A stretch of DNA of 64,000 nucleotides, taken from contig NZ_JADMKB010000101.1 in assembly GCF_018780075.1 (NCBI RefSeq), positions 1-64,000 on the forward strand, in the 5' to 3' direction. Position numbers and translations under genes: made by a program. Below, piece after piece: positions 5,601-63,297 of this stretch (within the stretch, counting starts at the first letter, position 1; each line of letters begins with the position of its first letter). The notes below the pieces were generated by a model. The model did no database searches. It was not told where the DNA came from and saw only the letters and a program-made list of their open reading frames with translations. The stretch is from Hydrogenophaga sp. GTDB taxonomy: Bacteria; Pseudomonadota; Gammaproteobacteria; Burkholderiales; Burkholderiaceae_C.

Positions 5601-8473
5601 CAGGGTGGGCCTCCGGCCGACTGGGATGGGGTCGAGGTGCGGTCCCGGCTCACCGAGCCCAGCACCGAGATGGTCAGCAGCGTCGCCCCCACCACCGTGA
5701 GGTACACACCGAGGTCGAACAGAGCGGCCGAGGCCAGCGGCAGCTCGCCCAGCAGCGGCATGTGCGGGTGCCCATGGGCGCTGGTCATGAAGGGCCGACC
5801 CCAGACAAAGGCGCCCGCGCCGGTCAGCCCGGCGATCGACAGCCCGGCACCGATGCAGCGCACGAAGCGGCGGCCGCTCTGCGCGCGCAGCATCGCCTCC
5901 GCCTTCGCCTGGCCCAGCGCCATGAACTGCAGCACCAGCGCCACCGCCGTGATCAGCCCGGCGATGAAGCCACCGCCGGGCAGGTTGTGGCCGCGCATGA
6001 AGATGTACAGCGCAAACACCAACGCCAGCGGCAACACCACCGTGGCGGCCACGCGCAACATCAGCGGCAGGGCGGCGAAGGTCCAGGCCAGGCCTTGCGG
6101 GTCGGTCAGTGGGCGGCGGCTGCGCATGCCGTCCATGAGGGCCAGCACACCGATGGCGGCGATGCCCAGCACGGTGATCTCGCCAAACGTGTCGTAGCCG
6201 CGGAAGTCCACCAGGATCACGTTGACCACGTTGGTGCCCCCGCCCACCGGCAGCGATTTCTCCAGGAAGTACCAGGAGATGGAATCGTGGTCGCGCGTGA
6301 GCAGCACCCAGGCCACCCAGGCCATGCCCGCCCCGCCGGCCAGCGCCAGCACACCGTCGCGCGCGCGGCGCAGCGCCGACGATTCGCGCGGCGAGTGCTG
6401 CGGCAACAAAGCCAGCCCCATCAGCAGCAGCACGGTGGACACCACCTCCACCGACAGCTGCGTCAGCGCCAGGTCGGGCGCCGACAGGCTCACGAAGGTG
6501 AGCGAGGTCACCAGCCCCACCACACCGACGAGCACCACGGCCTGGAACCGTTGGTGGTGCGTGAGCGCAATGGCCACGCAGGCCGCGAGCAGCAGCAGCC
6601 AGACCGCGATGGCCAGCGGCGAGGCGGGCAGCAGCTCGCGCGTCCCCGCACCGATGCCCTGCCCCGCCAGCTGCGTCGCCGCCGCCGCCACCGCGGCCCC
6701 GATGAGCCAGACCAGGTAGCGCTGCAGCGAGCCGGTCTCCAGGCGGTCGGAGACACGGCCAGCGAGCCCGAACAGGCCGTCGATCACCGCATCGAAAATC
6801 TGGCGCCCGGTGGCCAGGCCGAACCAGGCCTCGGACTGAATGCGGTGCAGGCGCTGGCCGCGCGCCAGCCAGAGGTACAGCCCGACGCCCGCGGCCAGCG
6901 CGATCGCGCTCATGAGCAGCGGCAGGTTGAAGCCGTGCCAGATGGCCAGGTGGTATTCGGGCAGCGGCTGGCCCACCATCGCCGTGGCCGCGACGTGCAC
7001 CAGCGGCCCGAAGGTGATGGCCGGCAGCAGGCCGACCCCGATGCACATGGTCACCAGCAACATGGCAGGCAGCTTCATGCCCAGCGGTGGTTCATGGGGA
7101 TGCGGGTTGGGCACATCGCCCAGTTCGCCGTTGAAATACGTGTCATGCACGAAGCGCAGCGAGTAGGCCACGCTGAACACGCCCGCCAGCGTCACCAGCG
7201 CGGGCACCACCCAGGCCCACACGCCCGCCGTGCCGACCACCGCCTCGGTGAAAAACATCTCTTTGGACAGGAAGCCGTTGGTCAGCGGAACACCGGCCAT
7301 CGACGCGGCCGCCACCATGGACAGCGTGGCCGTCCAGGGCATCAGCTTGTACAGGCCCCCGAGCTGGCGCATGTCGCGCGAATGCGTCTCGTGGTCCACG
7401 ATGCCCGCGATCATGAACAGCGAGGCCTTGAAGGTCGCGTGGTTGAGCACGTGGAACACCGCGGCCACGGCGGCCAGCGGCGAGCCCAGCCCGATCAGGA
7501 ACACGATCAGGCCCAGGTGGCTCACGGTCGAGTACGCGAGCAGGCCCTTGAGGTCGTGCTTGAAGAGCGCGATGAAGGCCGCGAACAGCACCGTGATCAG
7601 GCCCGCGCCGGTGACGATCACCTCGAACCAGCCCGTGCCCGCGAGCACCGGGTGCATGCGCATGAGCAGGAACACGCCCGCCTTCACCATGGTGGCCGAG
7701 TGCAGGTAGGCCGAGACCGGCGTGGGCGCGGCCATGGCGTCGGGCAGCCAGAAGTGGAACGGGAACTGCGCGCTCTTGGTGAAGGCGCCGAGCAGGATCA
7801 GCAGCAACGCGGGAACGAACAGCGGATCGGCCTGGATCAGGGCCACCCGGCCCACCATCTCGCTCAACTCGTGGGTGCCCGCGATCTGCCCCAGCAGCAA
7901 AAAGCCGCCGAGCATGGCCAGACCACCACCACCAGTGACGGCCAGCGCCTGGCGGGCGCCGGCGCGCGCATCGGCGCGGTGGCTCCAGAAGCCGATCAAC
8001 AGGAACGACGAGATGCTGGTCAGCTCCCAGAACACCACGAGCAGCAGCAGGTTGTCCGACAGCGCCACGCCCAGCATCGCCGCCATGAACAGCATCATCT
8101 CGCTGTAGAACTTGCCGGGCGAGTCCTTGGGGCTCAGGTAGAAGTGTGCGTAGAGCACGATGAGCAGGCCGATGAACAGGATCAGGCCCGCAAAGAGCAG
8201 CGACAGGCCGTCGAGCCGGAACGTGAGGTTCAGCCCGATCTCCGGCACCCAGGCCCAGGCATTGCGCACCGTCTCGCCCGCCATCACCCCCGGCGCCTGG
8301 CTCAGCAGCAAGCCCAGACTGGTGGCCGTGACCGCACCAGCGACCAGCGCCGTCGCCAGACGGGACCGGGGTCCGAGCCAGAAGGTGGCGGCGGTGCCCG
8401 CGAGCAGCGGGAGCAAGACGATCAGCAGGAGCACGTCAAGGGTTCCTTGTGTCAAGGTCGATCCATGGACCAA
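5600..8473 (-). CDS. mnhA: Mrp-type cation/H+ antiporter fused subunits A and B (PhaAB type)
   Basis: 957 residues, the largest antiporter subunit. About residues 1-770 are the NuoL-like MnhA part, with the proton-channel motif TKSAQFPFHFWLPDAMAAPT and the NuoJ-like C-terminal helices. Residues ~800-950 match MnhB, with GHNLPGGGFIAGLITAVAL and LFDLGVYLTVVGATLLTI. Fusion of A and B and the order AB, C, D, E, F, G are the layout of group 2 (Pha-type) Mrp systems. The complex exchanges Na+ or K+ for H+ at the inner membrane, supporting pH and salt homeostasis; ion preference cannot be told from sequence. Confidence 0.94.
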   Translation of the reverse strand: MVHGSTLTQGTLDVLLLIVLLPLLAGTAATFWLGPRSRLATALVAGAVTATSLGLLLSQAPGVMAGETVRNAWAWVPEIGLNLTFRLDGLSLLFAGLILFIGLLIVLYAHFYLSPKDSPGKFYSEMMLFMAAMLGVALSDNLLLLVVFWELTSISSFLLIGFWSHRADARAGARQALAVTGGGGLAMLGGFLLLGQIAGTHELSEMVGRVALIQADPLFVPALLLILLGAFTKSAQFPFHFWLPDAMAAPTPVSAYLHSATMVKAGVFLLMRMHPVLAGTGWFEVIVTGAGLITVLFAAFIALFKHDLKGLLAYSTVSHLGLIVFLIGLGSPLAAVAAVFHVLNHATFKASLFMIAGIVDHETHSRDMRQLGGLYKLMPWTATLSMVAAASMAGVPLTNGFLSKEMFFTEAVVGTAGVWAWVVPALVTLAGVFSVAYSLRFVHDTYFNGELGDVPNPHPHEPPLGMKLPAMLLVTMCIGVGLLPAITFGPLVHVAATAMVGQPLPEYHLAIWHGFNLPLLMSAIALAAGVGLYLWLARGQRLHRIQSEAWFGLATGRQIFDAVIDGLFGLAGRVSDRLETGSLQRYLVWLIGAAVAAAATQLAGQGIGAGTRELLPASPLAIAVWLLLLAACVAIALTHHQRFQAVVLVGVVGLVTSLTFVSLSAPDLALTQLSVEVVSTVLLLMGLALLPQHSPRESSALRRARDGVLALAGGAGMAWVAWVLLTRDHDSISWYFLEKSLPVGGGTNVVNVILVDFRGYDTFGEITVLGIAAIGVLALMDGMRSRRPLTDPQGLAWTFAALPLMLRVAATVVLPLALVFALYIFMRGHNLPGGGFIAGLITAVALVLQFMALGQAKAEAMLRAQSGRRFVRCIGAGLSIAGLTGAGAFVWGRPFMTSAHGHPHMPLLGELPLASAALFDLGVYLTVVGATLLTISVLGSVSRDRTSTPSQSAGGPP

Positions 8474-8563
8474 CCGGCGTTCAAAGAACGATCACGACCG
8501 CTGTGGCCGAGTTCCCGTGGCGGCGTCAAAGCACACGACCAATGCGCGTGGCACGCCAGTGAG

Positions 8564-9733
8564 TCAGTGTGTCGCAGACCCTGCCTCGCGCAGCAGCAGC
8601 CAGGCCAGACGGCAGCCCAAGCCTACCATTCCGCCCACGATCCAGAACACGCCCGCCACGCCGAGCAGCGTGCCGACCGAGCCGAACAGCATCGGCATCA
8701 CCACGCTCGACCCGTTGATCGCCATGGCCCGCAGGCCCAGCGCCTCGCCATGGCGGTGCCGGGGCGTGATCTGGTGCAGCGTGCTCATGATCATGGGCTG
8801 CACCGACCCCAGCGCCACACCGAGCAGCACCGACAGCCCGCCCATGGCCCAGGCGTTGTGGGCGAATGGGTAGGCCGCGAACAGCAGCGCCGTGCTCGCC
8901 ATCGCCGAGCCGATCACCACCGGCTCGCGCAGGTGCGCGGCCAGCCAGGGCATGACCAGCCGCACGGCGGTGGCGGCCAGCGCGAACGCGCCGAGGATGG
9001 TGCCGATCACCGTGGCGCTCAGATGGCGCTCGTGCCCGATGACCGGTACCAGGAAGGTGTGCACGTCCCAGCACGAGGACAGCAGCCAATTGATCAGCAT
9101 CAGTCGGCGGAACGCCGTGTCGCGCAGCAGGTTCCACGACGAGCCGCTGGTGTTGCGCTCGTCCGGTGCCACCGGCGCCTGCTCCACCACGCGGCGCACC
9201 CAGAACCAGGCCAGCGACGGCAACAGCGCCAGCAGCAGGTAGGCCGCCCGAAAGCCCTCGGCATCGATCAGCACGCCCGCCGCGAGTGGGCCGATGAAGT
9301 TGGAGATCGACGGGCCGATGGCCATCCAGCTGAACACCTGCTTGAGCTCGGTGGCGTTGCTCGCCAGCCGGCCCACGTGGCGCTGCAGCGCGATCATGGC
9401 CAGCCCGGTGGCGCCACCGCAGGTCAGCGCGGTGACGCACAGCACACCAAACACCGGGAAGGCCACGGCCAGCGCCGCGCCTGCGGTGGCCACGCCCACC
9501 GCCAGCAGCATCGGTTTCTTCAGCCCGCGGCGGTCGGCGTAGCGGCCGGCGGGCAAGGCGAGGAACACCTGGGCCAGCGCAAACAGCGCCAGCAGCATGC
9601 CCACCGCAACCGGGCTGTGGCCCTCGCGCAGCGCCATCAGCGGCGCGGCCATGCGAAAGCCGGTCATGCAGGCGTGCAGGCTGACCTGCGCGGCGATCAG
9701 CCGCGCCAGGCCGGCTTTCAGGGAGGCGCTCAA
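8564..9733 (-). CDS. MFS transporter, probable efflux type
   Basis: 389 residues with 12 predicted helices and the MFS loop 2-3 motif GRYADRRGLKKP (about residues 63-74). A second-half counterpart is less clear. Length and topology fit the 12-TM drug/metabolite efflux group (PF07690). It starts within the last 4 nt of rmuC, so the two are probably co-transcribed. No regulator or pathway gene indicates the substrate. Confidence 0.83.
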   Translation of the reverse strand: MSASLKAGLARLIAAQVSLHACMTGFRMAAPLMALREGHSPVAVGMLLALFALAQVFLALPAGRYADRRGLKKPMLLAVGVATAGAALAVAFPVFGVLCVTALTCGGATGLAMIALQRHVGRLASNATELKQVFSWMAIGPSISNFIGPLAAGVLIDAEGFRAAYLLLALLPSLAWFWVRRVVEQAPVAPDERNTSGSSWNLLRDTAFRRLMLINWLLSSCWDVHTFLVPVIGHERHLSATVIGTILGAFALAATAVRLVMPWLAAHLREPVVIGSAMASTALLFAAYPFAHNAWAMGGLSVLLGVALGSVQPMIMSTLHQITPRHRHGEALGLRAMAINGSSVVMPMLFGSVGTLLGVAGVFWIVGGMVGLGCRLAWLLLREAGSATH

Positions 9734-11253
9734 GTGTCTCCGTCGTCGCTGGGGTCCAGCGGCAGCAGCGCGCTGGCCTTGTCCTGCGGCAGCGCCTCCA
9801 CCGTCTTGAGCGCGCGGGTCATGGCGCGGCTGCGCGTCTCGGCGCTGTCGAGGGTGTTGAGCACGGTCTGGGTCTGGCTCTTGACGCGCGCCAGCACATC
9901 GCCGAACTTGCCGAACTCGGTCTTGACCGCGCCCAGCACCTGCCAGACCTCGCTGCTGCGTTTCTCCAGCGCCAGCGTGCGAAAGCCCATCTGCAGCGAA
10001 TTGAGCATGGCCATGAGCGTGGTCGGTCCGGCGAGCGTGACGCGGTATTCGCGCTGCAGCACCTCCATCAGCCCCGGTCGGCGCAGCACCTCGGCGTACA
10101 GGCCTTCGGTGGGCAGGAACAGGATCGCGAAGTCGGTGGTGTGCGGCGGCTCCAGGTACTTGTCGGCCATGCTTTTCGCTTCGAGCCTGATGCGCTGCTC
10201 CAGCCCGCGCGCGGCGATCTCGGCGCCTTCGGCGTCGGCGCGCTGCTGCGCATCGAGCAGGCGCTCGTAGTCTTCGTTCGGAAACTTCGCATCGATGGGC
10301 AGCCAGCAGGGAGCGCCGTCGTCGCCGCGGCCAGGCAGCCTGACCGCGAAGTCCACGGCGTTGCGGCTGCCGGGCCGGGTGGTGACCTGGGAGGCGTACT
10401 GGTCGGGGGCGAACACCTGTTCGAGCAACGCACCGAGCTGGGCCTCGCCGAACATGCCACGCGTCTTCACGTTGCTCAGCAGGTGCTTCAAGTCGCCCAC
10501 GCCCTGCGCCAGCGTCTGCATCTCGCCCAGGCCCTTGTGCACCTGTTCCAGCCGGTCGGCCACCTGCTTGAAGCTCTCGCCCAGGCGCGCCTGCAGCGTG
10601 CTCTGCAGCTTCTCGTCCACGGTCGCGCGCATCTCGTCCAGCTTGGCGGTGTTGCTCTGCTGCAGTTGCGCGAGCTGGTTTTCCAGCGTGGTGCGGATCT
10701 CCGCCAGGCGGCGCGCGTTGCCTTCGCTCATGTCCTGCAGCTGGCGCGTGAGCGTGTCGCTCAGCGTGCCGCGCAATTGCACCAATTGCTGCGCGAAGGC
10801 GTCGATCTGCGCGTTCTGCGTGCGCGTGGCTTCGGCCGCCTGCTGGCCCATGCCCAGGCTGATGGCCTGCAGCTGCTGGGTCAGCGTGTCGCCCAGCGTG
10901 CCGCGCAGCTGCAGCAGCTGCTGGGCAAAGGCGTCCAGCTGCGTGTTCTGCGTGCGCGTGGCTTCGGCGTCCTGCCGCGTCAGCGTCTCCTGGAAGGTGG
11001 CCAGGGTCTGCTGGATTTCCTGCCGGCCGCCGCGCGAGCTGTCGCTGATCTCGCGGCGCAGCTCGCTCTCCACCCGCTCGATGCGTTGCGTGGCCTGCTG
11101 GCCCTGCGCCTGCAGCGTGGCCAGCAGCTGCTGTCGCTGCGCGGCTTCGTCCGCGTTGGCCGGCGGTCGGCGCAGCAACAGCCAGAGCACCAGCAGCGCA
11201 TTGAGCACGCCCAACGCAAGCAGGGTCCAGGTGAGCAGGCCGGTGTCGCTCAT
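9730..11253 (-). CDS. rmuC: RmuC-family DNA recombination protein
   Basis: 507 residues: an N-terminal membrane anchor (residues ~7-28), a long coiled coil (about 35-250), then the RmuC nuclease-like domain (PF02646) with GMFGEAQLGALLEQVFAPDQ, LPIDAKFPNEDYERLLDA and FLPTEGLYAEVLRRPGL. RmuC limits inversion at short repeats in E. coli. The coiled coil contains a near-duplicate of 36 residues (97-132 and 141-176). The ATG at 11253 follows a non-homologous 26-codon in-frame extension that I excluded. An MFS gene overlaps its end. Confidence 0.92.
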   Translation of the reverse strand: MSDTGLLTWTLLALGVLNALLVLWLLLRRPPANADEAAQRQQLLATLQAQGQQATQRIERVESELRREISDSSRGGRQEIQQTLATFQETLTRQDAEATRTQNTQLDAFAQQLLQLRGTLGDTLTQQLQAISLGMGQQAAEATRTQNAQIDAFAQQLVQLRGTLSDTLTRQLQDMSEGNARRLAEIRTTLENQLAQLQQSNTAKLDEMRATVDEKLQSTLQARLGESFKQVADRLEQVHKGLGEMQTLAQGVGDLKHLLSNVKTRGMFGEAQLGALLEQVFAPDQYASQVTTRPGSRNAVDFAVRLPGRGDDGAPCWLPIDAKFPNEDYERLLDAQQRADAEGAEIAARGLEQRIRLEAKSMADKYLEPPHTTDFAILFLPTEGLYAEVLRRPGLMEVLQREYRVTLAGPTTLMAMLNSLQMGFRTLALEKRSSEVWQVLGAVKTEFGKFGDVLARVKSQTQTVLNTLDSAETRSRAMTRALKTVEALPQDKASALLPLDPSDDGDT

Positions 11254-54581: not shown

Positions 54582-55814
54582 TCAGAAAGCGGGCAGCGGC
54601 CGCCCCCGGGGCGCGTGCGCGGCGTGCCGCGCCATCACCTCCATGAACACGGCCTCCACCTGGGCGGCGATCTGCGGCCAATCCAGCTGGACCACCTGCC
54701 CACGCGCCTGGGCGTGGGCCATGGCGATGCGCTCGGGGTGTTCGGCCAGCTCGCGGGCACAGGCCACGTAGGCCCGGGTGTCGCCGACGGGCGCCAGCCA
54801 GCCCGAGTGGTGGTGCACCAGCCATTCGGACGCCGCCGCGGTGTCGAAGGCGAGCACCGGCAAACCGCTGGAGAGCGCCTCCAGTGTCACGTTGCCGAAG
54901 GTCTCGGTCAGGCTCGGGAACAGGCACAGATCGGCCGAGGCGTAGTACAGGGCCAGTTCGTCCTGGCGGCGCTGACCGGCAAACGTGGCCTGCGGGCACC
55001 GCTGGCGCAGCGTTTCGCACGAAGGACCATCGCCCACCCACACCAGCTTCACCGAGGGGTGTTTCGCGCGCATGGCGTCGAAGGCCTGGATCGCGACCTC
55101 CAGGTTCTTTTCGGGCGCCAGGCGCCCCACCACCAGCACCACCAGGCTGCCCTCGTCGGCGCCCCAGCTGGCGCGCAGCGCGGCGCTGCGCAGGTCCGGG
55201 CGAAACATCTGCGTGTCCACGCCCCGCGCCACCACCCGCGTGTTCTCGAACCCGCTGCTGATCAACTCGGCGCACAGCGCGCGTGTGGGCACCATGGTGC
55301 ACTGGGTCAGGTTGTGGAACTTGCGCAGGTAGGCCACGATGGGCTTCTTCAGCCAGCCCAGGCCGTAGTGCTCGCTGTAGCTGTGGAAATTGGTGCGGAA
55401 GTCAGAGGTCACGGGCAACCGCAGGTGGCGCGCGGCCTGCAGCGCCGACCAGCCCAGCGGGCCCTCGGTGGCGATGTGCACCAGGTCCGGCCGTTGCAGG
55501 GCCCAGGCCGCGATCAGCGCCTTCTTGCCCGGCAGGCCGAGCTTGAGCTGCGGGTAGCGGGGGATCGGCATGCCGCGCATCAGCACCTCTTCGAAACCGG
55601 CGTGGTCCGCCCCGCGTTCGCCCACGGTCTGGCGCGGGCGCACCAGCTGCACCTGGTGGTTGCGTTCGCACTGCCCCTGCACCAGCCGCGCCAGCGTGAG
55701 CGCCACACCGTTGACCTCGGGCGGCCAGGTTTCCGTGACCACGGCGAGGCGCAGCGAGGGCCGGGACGCGGGGAATTCCTGCATCAGGATGTGTTGTGAG
55801 GCGACGGCTTCCAT
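54582..55814 (-). CDS. GT4-family glycosyltransferase
   Basis: 410 residues (from 55814), GT-B fold. The N-terminal domain has RLAVVTETWPPEVNGVALTLARLVQG, as in lipid glycosyltransferases (MgtA, SqdX, glycosyl-DAG synthases). The C-terminal domain has the Glu-x7-Glu motif in ETFGNVTLEALSSGLPVLAFD. It probably transfers a sugar to diacylglycerol or a related lipid; sugar and acceptor are not determined. It is divergent from the Mpo1-like gene. A PHO-box-like direct repeat lies 22-40 bp upstream of the ATG. Met11 (55784) is an alternative start. Confidence 0.87.
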   Translation of the reverse strand: MEAVASQHILMQEFPASRPSLRLAVVTETWPPEVNGVALTLARLVQGQCERNHQVQLVRPRQTVGERGADHAGFEEVLMRGMPIPRYPQLKLGLPGKKALIAAWALQRPDLVHIATEGPLGWSALQAARHLRLPVTSDFRTNFHSYSEHYGLGWLKKPIVAYLRKFHNLTQCTMVPTRALCAELISSGFENTRVVARGVDTQMFRPDLRSAALRASWGADEGSLVVLVVGRLAPEKNLEVAIQAFDAMRAKHPSVKLVWVGDGPSCETLRQRCPQATFAGQRRQDELALYYASADLCLFPSLTETFGNVTLEALSSGLPVLAFDTAAASEWLVHHHSGWLAPVGDTRAYVACARELAEHPERIAMAHAQARGQVVQLDWPQIAAQVEAVFMEVMARHAAHAPRGRPLPAF

Positions 55815-55820
55815 GCACCC

Positions 55821-55826
55821 ATGATC
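55821..55826 (-). promoter_or_regulatory. Candidate -10 element of the GT4 gene
   Basis: GATCAT on the minus strand, exactly 10 nt after the PHO-like box at 55837-55854, as in E. coli Pho promoters where the box replaces the -35. It is 6 nt before the ATG, so the message would be nearly leaderless or start at Met11. Confidence 0.45.
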
Positions 55827-55836
55827 GCGACGCGAC

Positions 55837-55854
55837 AAAACAGATTGATGACAG
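55837..55854 (-). promoter_or_regulatory. PHO-box-like element of the GT4 promoter
   Basis: Minus strand CTGTCAT-CAAT-CTGTTTT. The first 7-mer is identical to the E. coli PHO half-site CTGTCAT and the second matches at 5 of 7. Half-sites are 11 nt apart, followed by 10 nt and a GATCAT -10. This is the best PHO-like box in the window. Confidence 0.6.
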
Positions 55855-55901
55855 GCCCACGCCGCGTGTCGCGCGGATGCGGTCTCCATGACAGCGAGGT
55901 G

Positions 55902-55935
55902 GTGTCACAGGCCTTTCACCGGTGATTCACATCAT
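55902..55935 (+). promoter_or_regulatory. PHO-box-like element and -10 of the Mpo1-like gene
   Basis: Plus strand GTGTCAC-AGGC-CTTTCAC (55902-55919), 10 of 14 half-site positions matching CTGTCAT. Ten nt later is CATCAT (55930-55935) as -10. It is 36 bp before the GTG start with a GGAG Shine-Dalgarno. Same spacing as the divergent GT4 box, in the same 157-bp gap. Confidence 0.5.
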
Positions 55936-55971
55936 GGGTGGCCCTAGCCCTTTGAACCACCGGAGACCCCT

Positions 55972-56580
55972 GTGAGCGAATTCTTCAAGCAACTCGAGAT
56001 CCAGCGTTGGGACGATCACCGCTACTACCACCACAGCCGCGTCAACCAGGCCCTGCACTTCGTCAGTGCGATCAGTTTTCTGGTGGCCTATGGCTGGCTG
56101 TTCGTCGACCCGGCCATCGCGGCGCTGATCGCCTGGCTGGTTTCGATGACGACGCGCCAGTCGGGCCACTTCTTCTTTGAGCCCAGGGGCTACGACCACG
56201 TCAACCAGGCCAGCCACGAACACAAGGAAGCCATCAAGGTGGGCTACAACCTGCAGCGCAAGGTGGTTTTGATGGCCCTGTGGGCGGCGGCCCCCGTGGC
56301 CTTGCTGGTGCAACCCGATCTGCTGGGCCTGGTCGAGCCGCACGACAGCTGGATGGGCTACCTGCGCCAGGTCGGCGTGGCCTGGCTGGCGCTGGGGGTG
56401 GGCGGCCTGCTGTTCCGCACGGTGCACCTGTTTTTCATCCAGGACGTGCGGACCGGTCTGGTGTGGATGACCAAGATCCTGACCGACCCCTTCCACGACA
56501 TCAAGCTGTACCACAAGGCCCCGCTGCACCTGCTGCGCGGCGAGTGGATCGATCCGGCCTACCACGGCGGCCGCGGCTGA
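55972..56580 (+). CDS. Membrane protein, Mpo1/DUF962-like
   Basis: 202 residues, GTG start with GGAG upstream. About four helices. The first ~90 residues show YYHHSRVNQALHFVSAISFLVA and RQSGHFFFEPRG, resembling Mpo1 (YGL010w)-type proteins, whose His residues bind Fe2+ and which carry out alpha-oxidation of 2-hydroxy fatty acids in yeast. Additional His are in HEHKEAIKVGYNLQRK. The match is by motif only. Its position within the lipid locus fits an acyl-chain or sphingolipid-like substrate. Confidence 0.62.
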   Translation: MSEFFKQLEIQRWDDHRYYHHSRVNQALHFVSAISFLVAYGWLFVDPAIAALIAWLVSMTTRQSGHFFFEPRGYDHVNQASHEHKEAIKVGYNLQRKVVLMALWAAAPVALLVQPDLLGLVEPHDSWMGYLRQVGVAWLALGVGGLLFRTVHLFFIQDVRTGLVWMTKILTDPFHDIKLYHKAPLHLLRGEWIDPAYHGGRG

Positions 56581-56615
56581 TCACCCACCGCTCGCGGCCG
56601 CCTGCCTTGAACGGT

Positions 56616-58265
56616 TCATCGCCCCAGCAGAGCGCCGAGCACCTCGCGCAGGATGCCGCGCCGGATGGCCTTGTTGCTCGGCCCGCCGCCCTGCCCCCAC
56701 CAGCCTTGCGCCCGCATGTCGCGGCCGGCGAGCACGAAGCGCTGCAGCACCTGATCGAAGTCTTCGTCGCTGAAGTTCAGGCTGAAGATCAATCGCCCGG
56801 TGCCCACCCAGCTCAGGGCCAGACCGTGCCAGCGCAGGTGGTACTGCAGCAGCCAGTTGTAGCGCGAGGGCTCGGTGTAGCCGATGGTCCAGATGCTGTG
56901 CATGTTCGCCGCGCGCATGGGCAGGCCCTCAGCGGCCATGGTCTGATTGAAGCGCAGCGCGCGCGCGTCCCAGCGCGCCTCCTGCCCCTCATAGATGGCC
57001 TGCACATCGGGGGTGTCCAGGCGCCGCAAAAATGCGTTCATGCCGCCCATGACGTATGGGTGGGCGTTGAAGGTGCCGCGCGCGAAGCACAGGTCGGCCG
57101 GGCGCTCGGGGCGGTAGCGCTGCATCAGATCGTGGCGCCCGCAGACCACGCCCACCGGGTAACCGCCGGCCAGCGTCTTGCCGTAGGTGACCATGTCGGC
57201 CTTCACGCCGAAGTATTCCTGCGCGCCGCCCGGCGCGAGCCGGAATCCGAGGAACACCTCGTCGAAGATCAGCACGATGCCGCGCTTGGTGCAGACCTCG
57301 CGAAGGCGCTGCAGCCACGCGGTGTAGGCGGCCTTGTCGTAGCCGGCCTGGCGGCTGCTGTCGACCAGCGCCGAGTCGGCCGGGGCGTTGCGGTTGGGGT
57401 GCAGGGCCTGCAGCGGGTTGACCAGCACGCAGGCGATGTCCTTGCGCGTGCGCAAGACCTGCAGGCTGCGCTCGCTCAGGTCGGCCAGGGTGTGGGTCTC
57501 GCGCGGGGGCAGCGGGTTGCCCGGGCCGGGCTGCACGTCTTCCCACCAGCCGTGGTACGCGCCGCAGAAACGCACCAGGTGTTTGCGGCGTGTGTGGTAA
57601 CGCGCCAGGCGCACGGCCTGCATCACCGCCTCGGTGCCCGACATGTGGAACGAGACTTCGTCCATCCCCGAGATCGCGCGCAGCCGCGCGATGTTGTCGG
57701 CCACGCAAGGGTGGTAAGCCCCGAGCACCGGCCCGAGGTCCTGCGCCAGCGCCGCGCCCTCGGTCATGGTGGCCTTGTAGAAGTCCACGCCGAACACGTT
57801 GACGCCGTAGGAGCCGGTGAGATCGATGAAGCGGTTGCCATCCAGGTCGGTCAGGCTCACGCCCTCGGCCGACTGCACGAAGGCACCCACCTTCAGCCGC
57901 GCGCTCACGATGGGGCTGAACTGGAAGGGCACGCGGTATTGGCCGGTGAACTGCAAATCGGCCAGTCCTTCGCGCGCCTGCGCGGTGAGCGCCAGGGTCT
58001 TGGCGTAGCGCTGGGCGAAACCGGCGCACAGCGTCTCGAAGGCCGCGCGCCGCAGCTGCGCGACCTCATCGGACACCCCGTCGCAGTTGAAGAACTTCTG
58101 TTCGTCGTAGGCGTAGCCCGGCAGCAGCCGCGCCAGCCGCTTGGCCAGACGCGAATGGCCGGCGAGCGAGCGGTGTTTGGCGCGCGAGAGGTCGAGGCGG
58201 CGCTTGAGCGCTGGCAGGCCCAGCGCGAGCGCGGCGGCCGGGAGGGCGTATTCGAAAAAGGGCAT
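56616..58265 (-). CDS. Class III PLP aminotransferase, glutamate-1-semialdehyde aminomutase-like
   Basis: 549 residues. The PLP lysine is Lys363 in TYGKTLAGGYPVG, preceded by FDEVFLGFR (Asp335) and SGTEAVMQAVRLARYHT; this is the GSAM subfamily fold. Residues 1-110 are an N-terminal extension absent from HemL (~430 residues), with a hydrophobic start (YALPAAALALGLPALKRRLDLSR) that may anchor it. As it is clustered with a decarboxylase and glycosyltransferases, it may aminate a lipid or lipid precursor, not tetrapyrrole intermediates. This is inference. It diverges from psd (59 bp between starts). Confidence 0.83.
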   Translation of the reverse strand: MPFFEYALPAAALALGLPALKRRLDLSRAKHRSLAGHSRLAKRLARLLPGYAYDEQKFFNCDGVSDEVAQLRRAAFETLCAGFAQRYAKTLALTAQAREGLADLQFTGQYRVPFQFSPIVSARLKVGAFVQSAEGVSLTDLDGNRFIDLTGSYGVNVFGVDFYKATMTEGAALAQDLGPVLGAYHPCVADNIARLRAISGMDEVSFHMSGTEAVMQAVRLARYHTRRKHLVRFCGAYHGWWEDVQPGPGNPLPPRETHTLADLSERSLQVLRTRKDIACVLVNPLQALHPNRNAPADSALVDSSRQAGYDKAAYTAWLQRLREVCTKRGIVLIFDEVFLGFRLAPGGAQEYFGVKADMVTYGKTLAGGYPVGVVCGRHDLMQRYRPERPADLCFARGTFNAHPYVMGGMNAFLRRLDTPDVQAIYEGQEARWDARALRFNQTMAAEGLPMRAANMHSIWTIGYTEPSRYNWLLQYHLRWHGLALSWVGTGRLIFSLNFSDEDFDQVLQRFVLAGRDMRAQGWWGQGGGPSNKAIRRGILREVLGALLGR

Positions 58266-58302
58266 GGCGATGACTGCTCCGTGACTGCAATCCCGCGTTT
58301 CT

Positions 58303-58320
58303 ATTTCACCCCCATGACAC
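58303..58320 (-). promoter_or_regulatory. Weak PHO-box-like element upstream of the aminotransferase
   Basis: Minus strand GTGTCAT-GGGG-GTGAAAT, 10 of 14 half-site matches. The -10 position 10 nt later (GATTGC) is poor. A second direct repeat, CAGTCAC-GGAG-CAGTCAT (58287-58270), lies too close to the start codon to act as a -35 element. Confidence 0.3.
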
Positions 58321-58324
58321 CCGT

Positions 58325-59242
58325 ATGAACCTGCGAGCCGCCGCTCAGCGCCTGGCGCTGAACGAAGACCTGAATTTCCTGCTGACCAACCGTGTGCCGC
58401 GCATCGCGCTCACGCGCTTCATGGGCTGGTGGAGCCGCATCCGCCACCCCTGGGTGCGTGGCACGTCGATGGCGGTCTGGAAAACCTTCTCCGACCTCGA
58501 CCTGAGCGAGGCCAAACAATCCCACTTCGACAGCCTGCACGACTGCTTCACCCGCGAACTCAAGCCCGGCCTGCGCCCGCTCGACGGCCGGCCCGGTGTG
58601 CTGACCAGCCCGAGCGACGGCATCGTGGGCGCCTGCGGCCGCATCGAGGCCTTGCAGTACGGCACGGACGCCCAGCTGTTCCAGGCCAAGGGCTTCCCCT
58701 ACCGGCTGCTCGACCTGCTGGGCGACAACGCGCCCGGGCGCGAGCTGGCGCGGCAGCTGCAGGGCGGGATCTACGTGACGCTGCGGCTCACCTCCAGCAT
58801 GTACCACCGCTTTCACGCGCCCTGCGACGCCACGCTGGAACACGTGACCTACCTCAGCGGCGACACCTGGAACGTCAACCCGATCGCGCTCCAGCGCGTG
58901 GAGCGCCTGTTTTGCCGCAACGAACGCGCCGTGTTGCGGCTGCGCCTGGCCGACGGCGGCCTGCTGGTGCTCGTGCCGGTGGCCGCCATCCTGGTGGCCA
59001 GCATGCGCCTGCGCGCGCTCGACGTTCCGCTCAACCTGCGCTACCGCGGCCCCCACCAGCTGCCCTGCTCGGCCCGCTACCGGCAGGGCGAGGAACTCGG
59101 CTGGTTCGAACACGGCTCCACCATCCTGGTGCTGGCGCCGTCGGGCCTGGCGCTGGACCCCACGCTGCAGAACGGCCACCGCATCCGCATGGGCGAAGCG
59201 CTGCTGCAACCCGCCGCCCACCCACCCGCAGGCACACCATGA
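58325..59242 (+). CDS. psd: Phosphatidylserine decarboxylase-like enzyme
   Basis: 305 residues, PS_Dcarbxylase family (PF02666). The catalytic Asp98 is in SPSDGIVG, His161 and His164 are in YHRFHAP, and the self-cleavage site is His-Gly-Ser-Thr (263-266) instead of the canonical Leu-Gly-Ser-Thr. The enzyme makes its pyruvoyl group by cleaving before the Ser. It normally converts phosphatidylserine to phosphatidylethanolamine in the membrane. Because the neighbours are a GSAM-like aminotransferase and an MGDG-type glycosyltransferase, its substrate may be unusual. The stop overlaps the GT28 start by 4 nt. Confidence 0.9.
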   Translation: MNLRAAAQRLALNEDLNFLLTNRVPRIALTRFMGWWSRIRHPWVRGTSMAVWKTFSDLDLSEAKQSHFDSLHDCFTRELKPGLRPLDGRPGVLTSPSDGIVGACGRIEALQYGTDAQLFQAKGFPYRLLDLLGDNAPGRELARQLQGGIYVTLRLTSSMYHRFHAPCDATLEHVTYLSGDTWNVNPIALQRVERLFCRNERAVLRLRLADGGLLVLVPVAAILVASMRLRALDVPLNLRYRGPHQLPCSARYRQGEELGWFEHGSTILVLAPSGLALDPTLQNGHRIRMGEALLQPAAHPPAGTP

Positions 59243-60423
59243 CAACGGTCCAGCTGATCTATTTCAACGCCGGTGGCGGGCACCGCTCGTCGGCGCTCGC
59301 GCTTCAATCTGTGCTGCGCGAACAGGGCCGCCCCTGGGACGTGCGCCTGGTCAACCTGTTCGAGGTGCTCGACCCGTCGGGCCGCTTCAAGCGCCTCACC
59401 GGCAAGGCCCCGGAGGACTGGTACAACCAGCGCCTCGCGCGAGGCTGGACGCTGGGCATGGCCCAGGAGCTCAAGCTGCTGCAAAGCCTGATCCGCGTGG
59501 CGCACCCCGCCCTGCTGCGGCGCCTGCGGTGGCACTGGCAGACCACGCGGCCCGACCTGGTGGTGTCGCTGATCCCCAACTTCAACCGCGCGCTCTGCGA
59601 GAGCCTGGACGCGGCCCGGCCGGGTGTGCCGTACGTCACCGTGCTGACCGATCTCGCCGACTTCCCGCCCCACTTCTGGATCGAGCGCCACCCCTTGCAA
59701 CACGTGGTGTGCGGCACGCCCCGGGCGGTGGAACAGGCCCGGGCACAAGGCCACGACGCGCACCATGTGCACGCCACCTCGGGCATGATCCTGCGCCCCG
59801 AGTTCTACCGGCCCGGCACCCTGAACCGGGCCGACGAACAGCGCCGCCTGGGGCTGGACCCGGGGCGACCGACCGGGCTGGTGCTGTTCGGCGGCCACGG
59901 CTCTAAAGCCATGCTGGGCATCGCCGAACGGCTGATCGACACGCAGCTGATCCTGGTCTGCGGCCACAACCAGAAGCTCGCCAACGCCTTGCGCGCGCTG
60001 CCCCAGGGAGCGCCGCGCCTCGTGGTGGGGTTCAGTGCGGACATCCCGCGCTACATGCAGCTGGCGGACTTTCTGATCGGCAAGCCGGGGCCGGGCAGCG
60101 TGAGCGAGGCGGTGCAGCAGAAGCTGCCGGTGATCGTGGTGAACAACGCCTGGACCATGCCGCAGGAGCGCTACAACGCGCAATGGATCGTGGAGAACCG
60201 GGTCGGGCTGGTGCTGCGCAGCTTCCGCTCGATCGACCGGGGCGTGGCGCAGCTGCTGGGCGACCTCGACACCTACCGCGCCAGCGTGCGCCAGATCCAC
60301 AACCGGGCACTGTTCGAGATCCCGGAGATCCTGGCCGGCCTGTTGCAAGGCGGGGCGCCCGAGCGCCCTGCTGCCTCGACCTCGGACCTGCTTTTCAGGA
60401 GCCCTGCACCATTCGCGACGTGA
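59239..60423 (+). CDS. MGDG-synthase-like glycosyltransferase (GT28 type)
   Basis: 394 residues. The N-terminus TTVQLIYFNAGGGHRSSALAL has the GGGH motif of MGDG synthases (PF06925). The C-terminal donor site has IGKPGPGSVSEAVQQKLPVIVV, the GT28 nucleotide-sugar loop. It predicts transfer of a hexose from a UDP-sugar to a lipid such as diacylglycerol. An open frame extends upstream to 58429, but lies inside psd and is a shadow; the ATG at 59239 overlaps the psd stop, so the pair is translationally coupled. Confidence 0.88.
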   Translation: MTTVQLIYFNAGGGHRSSALALQSVLREQGRPWDVRLVNLFEVLDPSGRFKRLTGKAPEDWYNQRLARGWTLGMAQELKLLQSLIRVAHPALLRRLRWHWQTTRPDLVVSLIPNFNRALCESLDAARPGVPYVTVLTDLADFPPHFWIERHPLQHVVCGTPRAVEQARAQGHDAHHVHATSGMILRPEFYRPGTLNRADEQRRLGLDPGRPTGLVLFGGHGSKAMLGIAERLIDTQLILVCGHNQKLANALRALPQGAPRLVVGFSADIPRYMQLADFLIGKPGPGSVSEAVQQKLPVIVVNNAWTMPQERYNAQWIVENRVGLVLRSFRSIDRGVAQLLGDLDTYRASVRQIHNRALFEIPEILAGLLQGGAPERPAASTSDLLFRSPAPFAT

Positions 60424-60459
60424 GAAGCGATGCATCCAGCCCCAGAAGCACCGCCGGGC

Positions 60460-60522
60460 CGGCTTCGCCGGACGGCCAGTGCCGCCCCCCTGGAGGGGGG
60501 TGACGCGAAGCGGCGCGGGGGG
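60460..60522. repeat. Dispersed GC-rich intergenic repeat, copy 2
   Basis: 63 bp between the convergent GT28 and glycerophosphodiesterase genes, aligning with 39607-39667 with few differences. It is about 38 nt after the GT28 stop and 9 nt from the GDPD stop. Confidence 0.75.
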
Positions 60523-60531
60523 TGCTCCTGT

Positions 60532-61794
60532 TCAACGCAGTCCGGCGCAGTTGGCGTAGAAGGTGGTGGTGGCGGGCCAGTCGGAGAACACGCCCATCAC
60601 GCCCACGTCCTTGGCCAGCACGTCCAGCACACGCAGCATCTCGCCTTCGCTGGTGAGCGCCGAGTCCACCGTCTGGTAGTAGAAACCGTTGTTGCCGTCG
60701 GCCAGGATGCCGGCGCGCTCCAGCGACCAGGTGATGAGGCCCAGCCCGGCCGCCTTGGCGTCGCGCGCGGCCTGCGAGGGCACGATCTTGCCCGCGGCGT
60801 CGGTGGCCATGAGCGCAAACAGCGGCGGCGCCCAGATGTTGATGCCCATCGACTTGTAGCCCGCCAGCTCGTTGTAGCCGGGCAGGTCGGCCACGGTGTT
60901 GGCGTCGTCCAGGTAGACCGCCTGCTTGCCGAACGCGGCTTCGTTGCGCACCCAGTACACCACGTCGTTGATGTTGAACGACTGCGGGAACACGTGGCGC
61001 GGCGGTACGCCGGCGCGCTTGTACTCGTCGATCATCTTCTGCGCGTAGGCATCCTGCGTGAAGCCGTCGAAGGGCATGGTCACGCTCGCGCTCTTCAGCT
61101 CGGGCGTCATCTTCACGCCCAGCCGCTTGAAGAGCTCGATGCTCTCGGCGTGGGTCATCAGCGTGCCGCTGCTGGGGCCAGAGTACAGGTCGGTGCGGAA
61201 GTTGGCCGTGCCGCCCAGGTACTCGGCGGGGGTGCGGGCGGCGTTGTTGGAGGCGTCCATCTTGCCGCGCAGGGTCTTGAACTCGGCCAGCGTGATGTCG
61301 CTGGTGCGGCACTCGGCGGTGGCCGGCGTGACCACCTTGCCGGTGGCGTCCAGCGTGGCGGGCACGAAGGGTTTGGTGCACTTGGCGGCCAGCGGTGTGA
61401 CCAGGATGTTGGTGGTGGTGTGCAGGTCGTTCTGCGCGTGGCGGCAGACCAGCTCTTTGTCCTTGGTGAAGGTCACGTCGCACTCGACGATGCCCGCACC
61501 CATGCGCGCCGCCGCGGTGTAGGACTCCACCGTGTGCTCGGGGAACTGCAGGGCCGCACCACGGTGGCCGATGGACCAGTCGCGCGGGGTGAACTGACCA
61601 CGCTGTGCGCACTGTTTCAGCTGGTTCTTGAGCGGGCTGTCGGCCATGTCGTCGACCAGAAAGAAAGGGCGCGGTCCGAGCTGGACATGGGAGGGCCGGT
61701 CGGTGTGGCGGCCGTGTTTGTCGCCTGCCGGGGCGGCCATGGCGGAGCCACAGACGAGCCCGAGCAACATCAGACCAAGGAGGGGGAGTCGCAT
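60532..61794 (-). CDS. Secreted glycerophosphodiester phosphodiesterase
   Basis: 420 residues with a signal peptide ([19 protein letters not shown]). The GDPD barrel (PF03009) starts at [18 protein letters not shown] (catalytic HRG and Glu), followed by [22 protein letters not shown] (metal-binding Glu/Asp and the His). It hydrolyses deacylated phospholipids to glycerol 3-phosphate plus an alcohol in the periplasm, supplying phosphate. The ATG at 61794 is preceded by a TTGAGG; an earlier TTG four codons upstream is less likely. Its promoter carries PHO-like repeats. Confidence 0.9.
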
Positions 61795-61854: not shown

Positions 61855-61888
61855 ATCCTAAAAACGCTGTGTGGCAATGGCGTGGCAG
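61855..61888 (-). promoter_or_regulatory. PHO-box-like element and -10 of the glycerophosphodiesterase
   Basis: Minus strand CTGCCAC-GCCA-TTGCCAC (61888-61871), then exactly 10 nt and TAGGAT (61860-61855) as -10. The half-sites are direct repeats 11 nt apart with C in place of T at position 4. It is 61 bp from the ATG, leaving an ordinary leader. Confidence 0.5.
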
Positions 61889-61926
61889 TTTCGGGCGCTG
61901 TCGCATCGGCGTGGCCCCGGCGCCGG

Positions 61927-61955
61927 GTCACACGCTGTTCACATTGTCGTCACAT
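61927..61955 (-). promoter_or_regulatory. Triple PHO-like repeat upstream of the glycerophosphodiesterase
   Basis: Minus strand ATGTGAC-GACA-ATGTGAA-CAGC-GTGTGAC: three direct 7-mers with 11-nt period, sharing TGTGA. It lies 39 bp upstream of the proximal box and could be an upstream PhoB array. Confidence 0.45.
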
Positions 61956-62010
61956 GACCGGGGTCTGTGTCCGATATGCTGCCGGCACAGGGCGGGCAGC
62001 GCCGGCACTG

Positions 62011-62202
62011 TCAGCCCCCTGCCCTGCCCGATGGCCGCTTCACATCAAAGACCCGGTGGTGCGGCCGCTGCAGGCGCGAACGCTGCAAGGCCAGGAACTC
62101 CACCAGGCCCGTGGCCCACCCGCAGGCCATCACGCCGAGGTGCACCCAGCGGTGGGGCGCCAGGCGCTTCTCGCGCCGCTGCAACAGGCTCTGGACCAAC
62201 AT
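62011..62202 (-). CDS. Possible small membrane protein
   Basis: 63 residues from ATG 62202, preceded by AAGG. It has basic residues at both ends and a central segment WVHLGVMACGWATGLVEFLALQ that could be one membrane helix, and an Arg/Lys-rich tail. It sits alone between the divergent GDPD and M14-family genes. Without it the gap 61795-62274 would hold only the PHO-like repeats. I cannot assign a family. Confidence 0.42.
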   Translation of the reverse strand: MLVQSLLQRREKRLAPHRWVHLGVMACGWATGLVEFLALQRSRLQRPHHRVFDVKRPSGRAGG

Positions 62203-62274
62203 GCTGTACCTTGGAAAGTGGGGGGTGTACAACACCCTAGTGGCCCCCTGTGACAACGCCGTGACGACCACCCC

Positions 62275-63297
62275 ATGAACGCCCACCACCGACCCCTCCC
62301 CGAGCTGCAGGCGCTGGAGCAGCTGATCGAACAGGGCGGCGCCCACCTGCAGGCCCGCGAGGTCCGGCGTGTGTCTGTGCCGGACGGGCCCTCGTTCCCG
62401 ATCCACGCCATCACCCTGGGCAATCCCGACCCCGGCCTGCCCGCCGTGGGCTACTTCGGCGGCGTGCACGGGCTGGAGCGCATCGGGGCCGAGGTGGTCA
62501 TCGCCTTTCTGCAGAACATCGTCACCCGCCTGCGCTGGGACACCACGCTGCAGCGCCAGCTTGAGCGCGTGCGCCTGGTGTTCATGCCCATCGTCAACCC
62601 CGGCGGCATGTGGGCCGCCACCCGCGCCAACCCGCGCGGGGTGGACCTGATGCGCAACGCGCCCGTGGACTCGCTGGAGAAGGTGCCTCACCTGATGGGC
62701 GGGCAGCGCCTGAGCGCGGGCCTGCCGTGGTACCGGGGGCGACTCGGAGACCCGCTGGAGGTGGAGGCCGAGGCCTTGTGCGAGGTGGTGCGCAGCGAGC
62801 TGCTGGGCCGCCCATTCAGCCTGGCGCTGGACTGCCACTCGGGCTTTGGCGTCCGCGACCGCCTGTGGTTTCCGTTCGCCCACACCCGGGCACCCATTCA
62901 CCACCTGGCCGAGCTGCACGCGCTGAAAGACATCTTCGTCCAGGCCCACAGCCAGCACCCCTACATCATCGAACCGCAGAGCGCGCAGTACCTGACGCAC
63001 GGCGACCTCTGGGACCACCTCTACCAGCGGGCCTGTGCGGAGCACCCGGCGACCACCTTCCTGCCGCTGACGCTGGAGATGGGCTCGTGGCTCTGGATCA
63101 AGAAGAACCCGCGCCAGCTGTTCTCGCGCAAGGGCATCTTCAACCCGCTGATCAACCACCGCCAGCAGCGCGTGCTGCGCCGCCACCAGGCGCTGCTGGA
63201 CTTCCTCTCGCGGGCCGCGGGCAGCCACGCCCTCTGGACGCCGACCGCGGAGCAGCGCCCGCAGCGCCACGCCGACGCGCTGGCCGACTGGTATTGA
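62275..63297 (+). CDS. M14-family zinc carboxypeptidase-like protein
   Basis: 340 residues, succinylglutamate desuccinylase/aspartoacylase-carboxypeptidase fold. Zinc ligands His65 and Glu68 are in GGVHGLERIG, and the third is probably His188 in ALDCHSGFG; the substrate Arg is in VNPGGMWAATRANPRGVDL and the general base Glu268 in PLTLEMGS. The real substrate may be a peptide, acylated amino acid or ester; the family is broad. It precedes an alpha/beta hydrolase by 20 nt. Confidence 0.83.
   Translation: MNAHHRPLPELQALEQLIEQGGAHLQAREVRRVSVPDGPSFPIHAITLGNPDPGLPAVGYFGGVHGLERIGAEVVIAFLQNIVTRLRWDTTLQRQLERVRLVFMPIVNPGGMWAATRANPRGVDLMRNAPVDSLEKVPHLMGGQRLSAGLPWYRGRLGDPLEVEAEALCEVVRSELLGRPFSLALDCHSGFGVRDRLWFPFAHTRAPIHHLAELHALKDIFVQAHSQHPYIIEPQSAQYLTHGDLWDHLYQRACAEHPATTFLPLTLEMGSWLWIKKNPRQLFSRKGIFNPLINHRQQRVLRRHQALLDFLSRAAGSHALWTPTAEQRPQRHADALADWY

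Follow-up and report, generated by a model that had tools for sequence, protein, structure and literature searches.

Phosphate is scarce in much freshwater and at the ocean surface, and one way in which bacteria economize on it is to swap their phospholipids for other lipids. Among the closest described cases is the PlcP-Agt remodelling of Pelagibacter, Pseudomonas aeruginosa and Methylosinus, with MGDG and GADG (monoglycosyl- and glucuronic acid diacylglycerol) as its glycolipids. Here we consider a gene cluster at positions 54582-61794 of a Hydrogenophaga window, the window being the whole stretch of DNA that was analysed, that is, bases 1-64000 of contig C15 in a 5.39-Mb genome of 191 contigs. 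The cluster encodes a GT4 glycosyltransferase, an Mpo1-like protein, a class III aminotransferase (AT), a second phosphatidylserine decarboxylase paralogue (Psd2), a GT28-type glycosyltransferase and a glycerophosphodiester phosphodiesterase (GDPD). It shares with the PlcP-Agt systems the Pho boxes, the GT4 and the connection to phosphate stress; as for a PlcP-like gene, some relatives have one close by, and this genome has one at a different location. The difference is that the locus adds AT, Psd2 and the Mpo1-like protein. Judging from the sequence, we propose with moderate confidence that the locus is controlled by PhoB and serves to remodel membrane lipids, and that in it a familiar glycolipid layer would be combined with an AT/Psd2/Mpo1-like module making a phosphorus-free amine lipid.

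A further point of comparison is the synthesis of ornithine lipids, whose genes for OlsB and OlsF, phosphate-stress aminolipid genes, lie beside the module in some relatives. This synthesis is an acyltransferase chemistry on ornithine and, to our knowledge, it involves neither an aminotransferase nor a decarboxylase. These two words are also absent from the main text of the PlcP-Agt papers searched (PMC4796936 among them), and a description of the combination of AT, Psd and Mpo1-like protein was not found among the titles and abstract openings listed from an open-access library, with subscription journals mostly outside. A Pho-controlled lipid-remodelling cluster is of a known kind, of which the AT/Psd2/Mpo1-like core is an apparently undescribed version. 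The known replacement lipids do not explain all the lipids observed, and the consulted part of PMC4796936 states that the synthesis of DGTA (diacylglyceryl hydroxymethyltrimethyl-β-alanine) and DGDG (diglycosyldiacylglycerol) in marine heterotrophic bacteria awaits characterization. The trio with Pho-type promoters and a rebuilt Psd phosphate pocket is a concrete lead to an unknown lipid.

The locus and its conserved core

The genes of the cluster are the following:

54582..55814, minus strand: GT4 glycosyltransferase, Agt-like (PF13692, 102.8 bits; ATG at 55814, reading frame open to 55889)
55972..56580, plus strand: Mpo1-like membrane protein (GTG start; PF06127, 21 bits, cut-off 24)
56616..58265, minus strand: class III aminotransferase AT, 549 amino acids (PF00202, 114.3 bits; N-terminal hydrophobic helix)
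58325..59242, plus strand: Psd2 (PF02666, 170 bits; TIGR00163, 144.3 bits, cut-off 111.75)
59239..60423, plus strand: GT28-type diacylglycerol glycosyltransferase, accessory (PF04101, the C-terminal domain, 29.7 bits, cut-off 22)
60532..61794, minus strand: GDPD, accessory (PF03009, 70.5 bits)

A preliminary description of this DNA had reported six lipid-related genes, and all of them were found where it placed them. Its family assignments pass Pfam for GT4, class III AT, Psd, GT28 and GDPD, but the Mpo1-like protein stays below its cut-off. The GT28 gene overlaps psd2 by 4 bp, and its product has 59.5 bits against PRK13609, for which the cut-off is 500. The GDPD carries a hydrophobic leader, as judged by eye. 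The best titled relatives of AT are from Hydrogenophaga, with identities of 96% in locus L010 and 95% in L011.

To find the part of the cluster that is conserved, 80 loci were taken as the best 80 of at least 588 AT relatives, a sample that is therefore biased to close kin and includes some metagenome-assembled genomes whose titles may be wrong. The Mpo1-like gene is present in 79 of them, Psd2 in 78 and GT4 in 75, with all misses at contig ends, while GT28 is present in 9 and GDPD in 4 (loci with short flanks counted). The conserved core is thus AT, Psd2, Mpo1-like and GT4, and GT28 and GDPD are accessory local additions, so that four genes of the six-gene unit suggested earlier are retained and two are not.

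At a threshold of E<=1e-60, 34 of the 300 order genomes and 25 of the 398 phylum genomes have an AT. Besides the window's genome there are thus 33 AT-positive genomes in the order, which gave 29 loci, four being without a locus. AT, Psd2 and the Mpo1-like gene occur together in 29 of the 29, within loci that span 3.8 to 4.6 kb, and GT4 in 25. From the 24 phylum matches besides the window's, 19 were examined together with one order match, the five omitted being of one genus; all three core genes are found in 19 of these 20 further loci, and the exception is a contig of 4.4 kb. Four of the 19 repeat genomes of the order sample. The three genes stay linked across several classes despite differing order and orientation, and the taxa that carry the module include Hydrogenophaga and Limnohabitans.

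The association can also be seen at the level of whole genomes. Each of the 34 AT-positive genomes has two Psd, compared to 18 of the 266 AT-negative ones with at least two (Fisher P 5e-32 over the 300 genomes, with kinship ignored). The Mpo1-like gene is found, among the same 300 genomes, in all 34 AT-positive ones and in one more, G064, where AT is broken. In this last case (L218, about 8100-9800) an AT fragment of ca 126 residues is flanked by a shortened Mpo1-like gene and by Psd2, close to PhoU-, PhoX- and PstB-like genes; Psd2 and GT4 are kept, and the locus represents a natural loss of AT.

Sorted by kinship, the loci from outside the order form two groups, which differ in what accompanies the core. 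In group A (L142-L150; families f78, f85 and f88, of another class of the phylum), a PmtA-type N-methyltransferase adjoins the Mpo1-like gene in 9 of 9 loci. A named member of this kind is the alphaproteobacterium Sphingomonas parapaucimobilis, in which AT, Psd2, Mpo1-like and methyltransferase genes stand together on plasmid NZ_CP155753.1 (L191), with identities of 63%, 54%, 63% and 63%, respectively. The automatic name of its Psd2, archaetidylserine decarboxylase, may mislead. In group B (L136, L151-L153 and L157-L159; families f53, which shares the window's class, and f79, from a different one), where G640 alone belongs to the window's class, a GT4 fusion protein sits between AT and Psd2, and OlsF (841 bits, cut-off 620) is close by in two of the seven loci, L151 and L157. 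The fusion proteins of L151 and L153 have about 940-960 amino acids; they end in a GT4 domain, and their N-terminal part looks by eye like a PHP phosphoesterase. This N-terminal part is present in all seven loci of the group; in L153 the region has zero Pfam matches.

Pho-type promoters

Pho-type control of the locus is well supported at the sequence level, by a model built from other genes and other genomes. Its training set consisted of pstS promoters from 17 further genomes in the same genus, which have the form NTGTCAY-4-NTGTCAY, followed after 10 nucleotides (nt) by a TA-rich -10. Of the 20 same-genus pstS loci, L168, L174 and L189 were left out, and the window genome's own locus (L186) was also excluded. 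The sites in and next to the cluster are:

55821..55854, minus strand: Pho-type site toward GT4 (CTGTCAT-4-CTGTTTT, 10 nt, GATCAT, a weak -10)
55902..55935, plus strand: Pho repeats toward the Mpo1-like gene (GTGTCAC-4-CTTTCAC-4-GATTCAC, poor -10)
58298..58331, minus strand: Pho-type promoter toward AT (GGTTCAT-4-GTGTCAT, 10 nt, TAGAAA)
61855..61888, minus strand: Pho promoter of GDPD (CTGCCAC-4-TTGCCAC, 10 nt, TAGGAT)
62234..62267, minus strand: strongest Pho site in the window, before a putative small open reading frame and not before GDPD (TCGTCAC-4-TTGTCAC, 10 nt, TAGGGT)

With a compact version of the model, applied to the 127,934 positions of the window on both strands, the site at 62234-62267 takes rank 1, the GDPD site rank 2, the Mpo1-like site rank 3, the AT site rank 4 and the GT4 site rank 11. 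It should be pointed out that the compact model was adopted once the result of a first model was known. The latter had 34 columns including the spacers and over-fitted the training set; with it, the locus takes ranks 1, 2, 4 and 5, and the AT site only rank 37. The geometry of half-site, 10 nt and -10 is good at AT, GDPD and 62234, and the GT4 and Mpo1-like sites have the 11-nt repeats with a poor -10. The earlier observation of PHO-like repeats at the locus holds, and the 62234 site lies beyond the end of the region that had been delimited. At the AT promoter, the upstream half-site overlaps the start codon of psd2.

Genome-wide, a Pho pattern with at most 3 mismatches gives 24 matches, compared to 13 for a reversed control, which means that about half of the matches may be due to chance. 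Four of the 24 fall at the locus, corresponding to a Poisson P of ~6e-8 for a pattern that was picked with the locus already seen. The best match is pstS, with zero mismatches, and the 62234-62267 site has 2. A generic E. coli Pho pattern is uninformative, with 33 matches compared to 12 for the reversed control and zero at the locus.

In the related loci, upstream regions were scored against the 95th percentile of random segments from the same loci, which may themselves contain Pho sites. Among the 80 relatives, regions could be scored for AT in 76, Mpo1-like in 76, Psd2 in 79 and GT4 in 74, the others being uncalled or too short; the region exceeds the control for AT in 73/76, Mpo1-like in 75/76 and GT4 in 57/74. 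The proportions are lower in the order sample (AT 22/29, Mpo1-like 15/28, GT4 6/9). Trained on one genus, the model still detects sites for AT in 6/9 and for Mpo1-like in 5/9 loci of group A, and in 6/7 and 4/6, respectively, of group B. GDPD regions exceed the control in 4 of 5 loci and, with all loci combined, PlcP-like genes in 6/12 and UDP-glucose dehydrogenase in 12/23, whereas the unrelated thrB (0/17), BPSS1780 gene (0/17) and polA (0/7) never do. The 125 AT regions of the all-loci scoring contain repeats, since L154, L155, L156 and L160 are from the genomes of L092, L109, L106 and L096, and some loci are near-duplicates, such as L062/L063 and L035/L038. In 65 of the 71 AT loci with a TGTCA half-site, TANA stands exactly 10 nt past it, whereas each of the other spacings between 4 and 17 is seen in at most 5 of the same 71.

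The three core proteins

We now turn to the AT. The assignment as GSAM-like (glutamate-1-semialdehyde aminomutase) in the preliminary description is valid at the superfamily level, but the scores are far below the cut-offs, 174.4 bits against PRK00062 (cut-off 398) and 163.5 against TIGR00713 (cut-off 527.3). A GSAM (HemL) function was rejected on the basis of these cut-offs and of nearer relatives. Namely, the best solved relative by profile is the aminotransferase (AMT) domain of the mycosubtilin synthase MycA (6kfm), with 205 bits compared to 151 for the best GSAM, and the predicted fold has mycosubtilin AMT at ranks 1 and 2 in Foldseek. The MycA domain aminates a β-keto thioester on an acyl carrier protein (ACP), according to the part of PMC3870968 consulted. 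Unlike it, the AT here is stand-alone and has a hydrophobic N-terminus, and neither a polyketide synthase nor an ACP is among the annotated neighbour families. The hydrophobic N-terminus, seen by hydropathy in 106 of 126 AT, suggests that the enzyme acts on a membrane substrate. A viral origin of AT was also considered and rejected; a scan of viral contigs gave 23 pattern matches and zero relatives.

The Psd2 protein has 147 bits by profile to E. coli Psd (6l06, 7cnw), aligns with the membrane-bound N-terminal part of that enzyme, and shares with it the catalytic Asp and His and the Ser-Thr cleavage site; Asp98, His161 and the HGST self-cleavage site are invariant in 20 of 20 sequences. The E. 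coli enzyme contacts the phosphate through two side chains, those of Tyr137 and Ser166, and the carboxylate through His144, as described in the part of PMC7952604 available. Both phosphate contacts are changed in Psd2, Tyr137 to Arg and Ser166 to Asn, and so are Asp142, to Met, and LGST, to HGST; the corresponding residues in the window protein are Arg154, Asn183 and His263-Gly-Ser-Thr. Among the 124 locus Psd of at least 250 amino acids (shorter fragments were dropped), Arg, Asn and HGST occur together in 119; one of the other five has Leu for Asn and four are readable at two of the three places. The same residues are seen in the Psd2 of Sphingomonas. The Met at the Asp142 position is found in all of the 11 Psd2 that were aligned.

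The other Psd copy of this genome (G000:C56:9879-10544) belongs to the E. coli-type housekeeping Psd, in which Tyr, Ser and L/MGST are found in 14 of 14 cases. These 14 come from a comparison set of 21, namely 20 hand-picked among the matches listed and the genome's own; the remaining seven are six of a short type without the motifs and one of a third type (L237). The simplest reading of the pocket changes in Psd2 is an altered headgroup of the substrate.

The Mpo1-like protein is compared to yeast Mpo1, a 2-hydroxy fatty acid dioxygenase (PF06127). It has 202 amino acids, compared to the 95 positions of the profile, and 21 of 21 orthologues tested match PF06127 at E<1. The protein is predicted to be all-helical with hydrophobic stretches, and a convincing solved relative was not found. 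Invariant His, Asp and Glu residues are present in the alignment, and it keeps motifs of the type H..N..LH and Q..GH..FE, which we take to be the Mpo1 motifs.

Proposed function, alternatives and surroundings

The proposed course of events is as follows. Upon phosphate starvation, PhoB control would switch on the locus. In a first layer, a PlcP-like enzyme, the gene of which is at another place in the genome together with those for OlsB and PhoX and near the pst operon, would supply diacylglycerol, GT4 and GT28 would glycosylate it, and GDPD would recover phosphate from headgroups. Diacylglycerol is most likely the acceptor of GT4; action on the amine lipid would be possible, if unsupported. 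The unusual aminated glycolipid put forward in the preliminary description is a hypothesis. In a second layer, the membrane-anchored AT would aminate a membrane lipid at a keto or aldehyde carbon, and Psd2 would then decarboxylate an amino-acid-type lipid that is without the usual serine phosphodiester. The Mpo1-like protein would carry out an iron-dependent oxidation of the same lipid. We infer here that all three enzymes share one lipid and that AT precedes Psd2. The result would be an amine-bearing lipid without phosphorus that takes the place of phosphatidylethanolamine, parallel to the PlcP-Agt glycolipids. In some relatives outside the Burkholderiales, a PmtA-like enzyme could N-methylate this amine lipid.

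In its most specific form, which we put forward only tentatively, the proposal is that the trio is a new pathway of several Pseudomonadota classes, whose phosphorus-free amine-headed lipid would be a true surrogate of phosphatidylethanolamine, N-methylated to a surrogate of phosphatidylcholine where a PmtA-like enzyme is present, as in Sphingomonas. If true, it would be a nitrogenous counterpart to the glycolipids of PlcP-Agt, and bacterial amino or betaine lipids whose origin is unknown could come from it.

A number of observations weigh against the amine-lipid proposal. The AT shares only 26-27% identity with the solved protein closest to it, and the N-terminal helix in its model (residues 3-29) has low confidence. 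The Mpo1-like protein of the window is under the PF06127 cut-off, and its model has zero matches with E<0.001 in the PDB by Foldseek. The psd2 upstream region exceeds the control in only 18 of 79 loci, that of GT4 in group B in 0 of 6, and that of the neighbour LplT in 7 of 38 over all loci. Finally, Psd2 is above the TIGR00163 cut-off, and, according to the part of PMC7952604 consulted, 15% of the Psd family have Arg in place of Tyr137, so that Psd2 may simply decarboxylate phosphatidylserine.

This last point leads to the alternative that Psd2 is an ordinary phosphatidylserine decarboxylase, induced by phosphate stress to keep phosphatidylethanolamine supplied during the turnover of phospholipids, with AT and the Mpo1-like protein acting on acyl chains and no new headgroup being made. 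The score of 144 bits, compared to the equivalog cut-off of 111.75, is in line with it, as are the retained Asp98, His161 and GST cleavage site, the Arg, which in the consulted text is among the residues that naturally replace Tyr137, and an AT whose nearest solved relative, in the part of its source seen, works on an acyl chain. However, the genome already carries a Psd with the canonical residues, both phosphate contacts are altered in 119 of the 124 locus Psd, and Psd2 remains linked to AT and the Mpo1-like gene, and we therefore regard this explanation as rather unlikely.

We have also considered that the module is catabolic and dismantles the ethanolamine or serine headgroups set free upon phosphate starvation to recover phosphate and nitrogen, with AT resembling the class III phosphoethanolamine phospho-lyases. 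Class III aminotransferases do include phospho-lyases, a GDPD is adjacent in this genome, and the PlcP-like protein that it encodes would release headgroups. In contrast, the hydrophobic N-terminus of AT and the alignment of Psd2 with the membrane-bound part of E. coli Psd point to lipids and away from soluble substrates, the nearest relatives of AT are mycosubtilin AMT and GSAM, GDPD is present in just 4 of the 80 relatives, and the neighbours OlsB, OlsF and methyltransferase are biosynthetic; a catabolic role appears very improbable. We consider it equally improbable that the cluster is a Pho-regulated set of neighbours of convenience, each lipid gene serving a separate pathway. Such an arrangement would fit with GT28, GDPD, LplT, UDP-glucose dehydrogenase and others, which come and go among the relatives, but AT, Psd2 and the Mpo1-like gene are linked in several classes in varied order and orientation, and of the 35 genomes among the 300 that have the Mpo1-like gene, 34 carry an intact AT.

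Another option was the formation of DGTA from DGTS (diacylglyceryl trimethylhomoserine). BtaA (DUF3419) has zero matches in this genome; 5 of the 34 AT-positive genomes have one, which is weak in one case, as do 27 of the 300 overall. This route was rejected as a general explanation, since a BtaA match is absent here and from 29 of the 34. In one relative, at G069:C1:2673461-2674408, there are two weak BtaA-like (DUF3419) matches ca 1 kb from Psd2.

The neighbours in the 80 loci, called with a crude open reading frame caller, include LplT in 35, UDP-glucose dehydrogenase in 25, PhoX in 19, PstB in 16, PPK2 in 14, PhoU, PhoR and PlcP-like in 13 each, and OlsB in 9. Matches of less than 40% identity, which may be paralogues, make up 4 of the 19 for PhoX, 3 of the 16 for PstB and 1 of the 13 for PhoR. 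The PlcP label is based on the context and our own reading, as Pfam gives metallophosphoesterase and nothing more. Together with the Pho model, these phosphate and lipid neighbours, present in part of the relatives, lend support to the phosphate-responsive lipid remodelling suggested earlier.

The same genome has a second phosphate-stress locus (L217, G000:C10:104000-123900), with pstS, two permease-length reading frames, and PstB- and PhoU-like genes. About 10 kb past these pst genes there are a second GT4 and PlcP-like, OlsB-like and PhoX-like genes. A match to the Pho pattern directly precedes the phoX-like gene. The PlcP-type gene of this genome is thus on C10, outside the window locus; at C10:119450-120220 it encodes a homologue of the L047 PlcP-like protein with 69% identity. 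In view of this second locus, the genome probably has the known routes to glycolipids and ornithine lipids, to which the window locus adds something.

Two further features lie beyond the GDPD gene:

62011..62202, minus strand: putative small open reading frame of 63 amino acids, downstream of the window's strongest Pho site
62275-63297, plus strand: M14-family gene, which follows the small reading frame

Between GDPD and the M14-family gene, at 61925-61969 on the plus strand, there are three TCAC half-sites with an 11-nt period and without a good -10. The small reading frame is conserved with 75% identity over its length in L011, and has partial or weak matches in L010, L012, L013, L015, L017 and L021.

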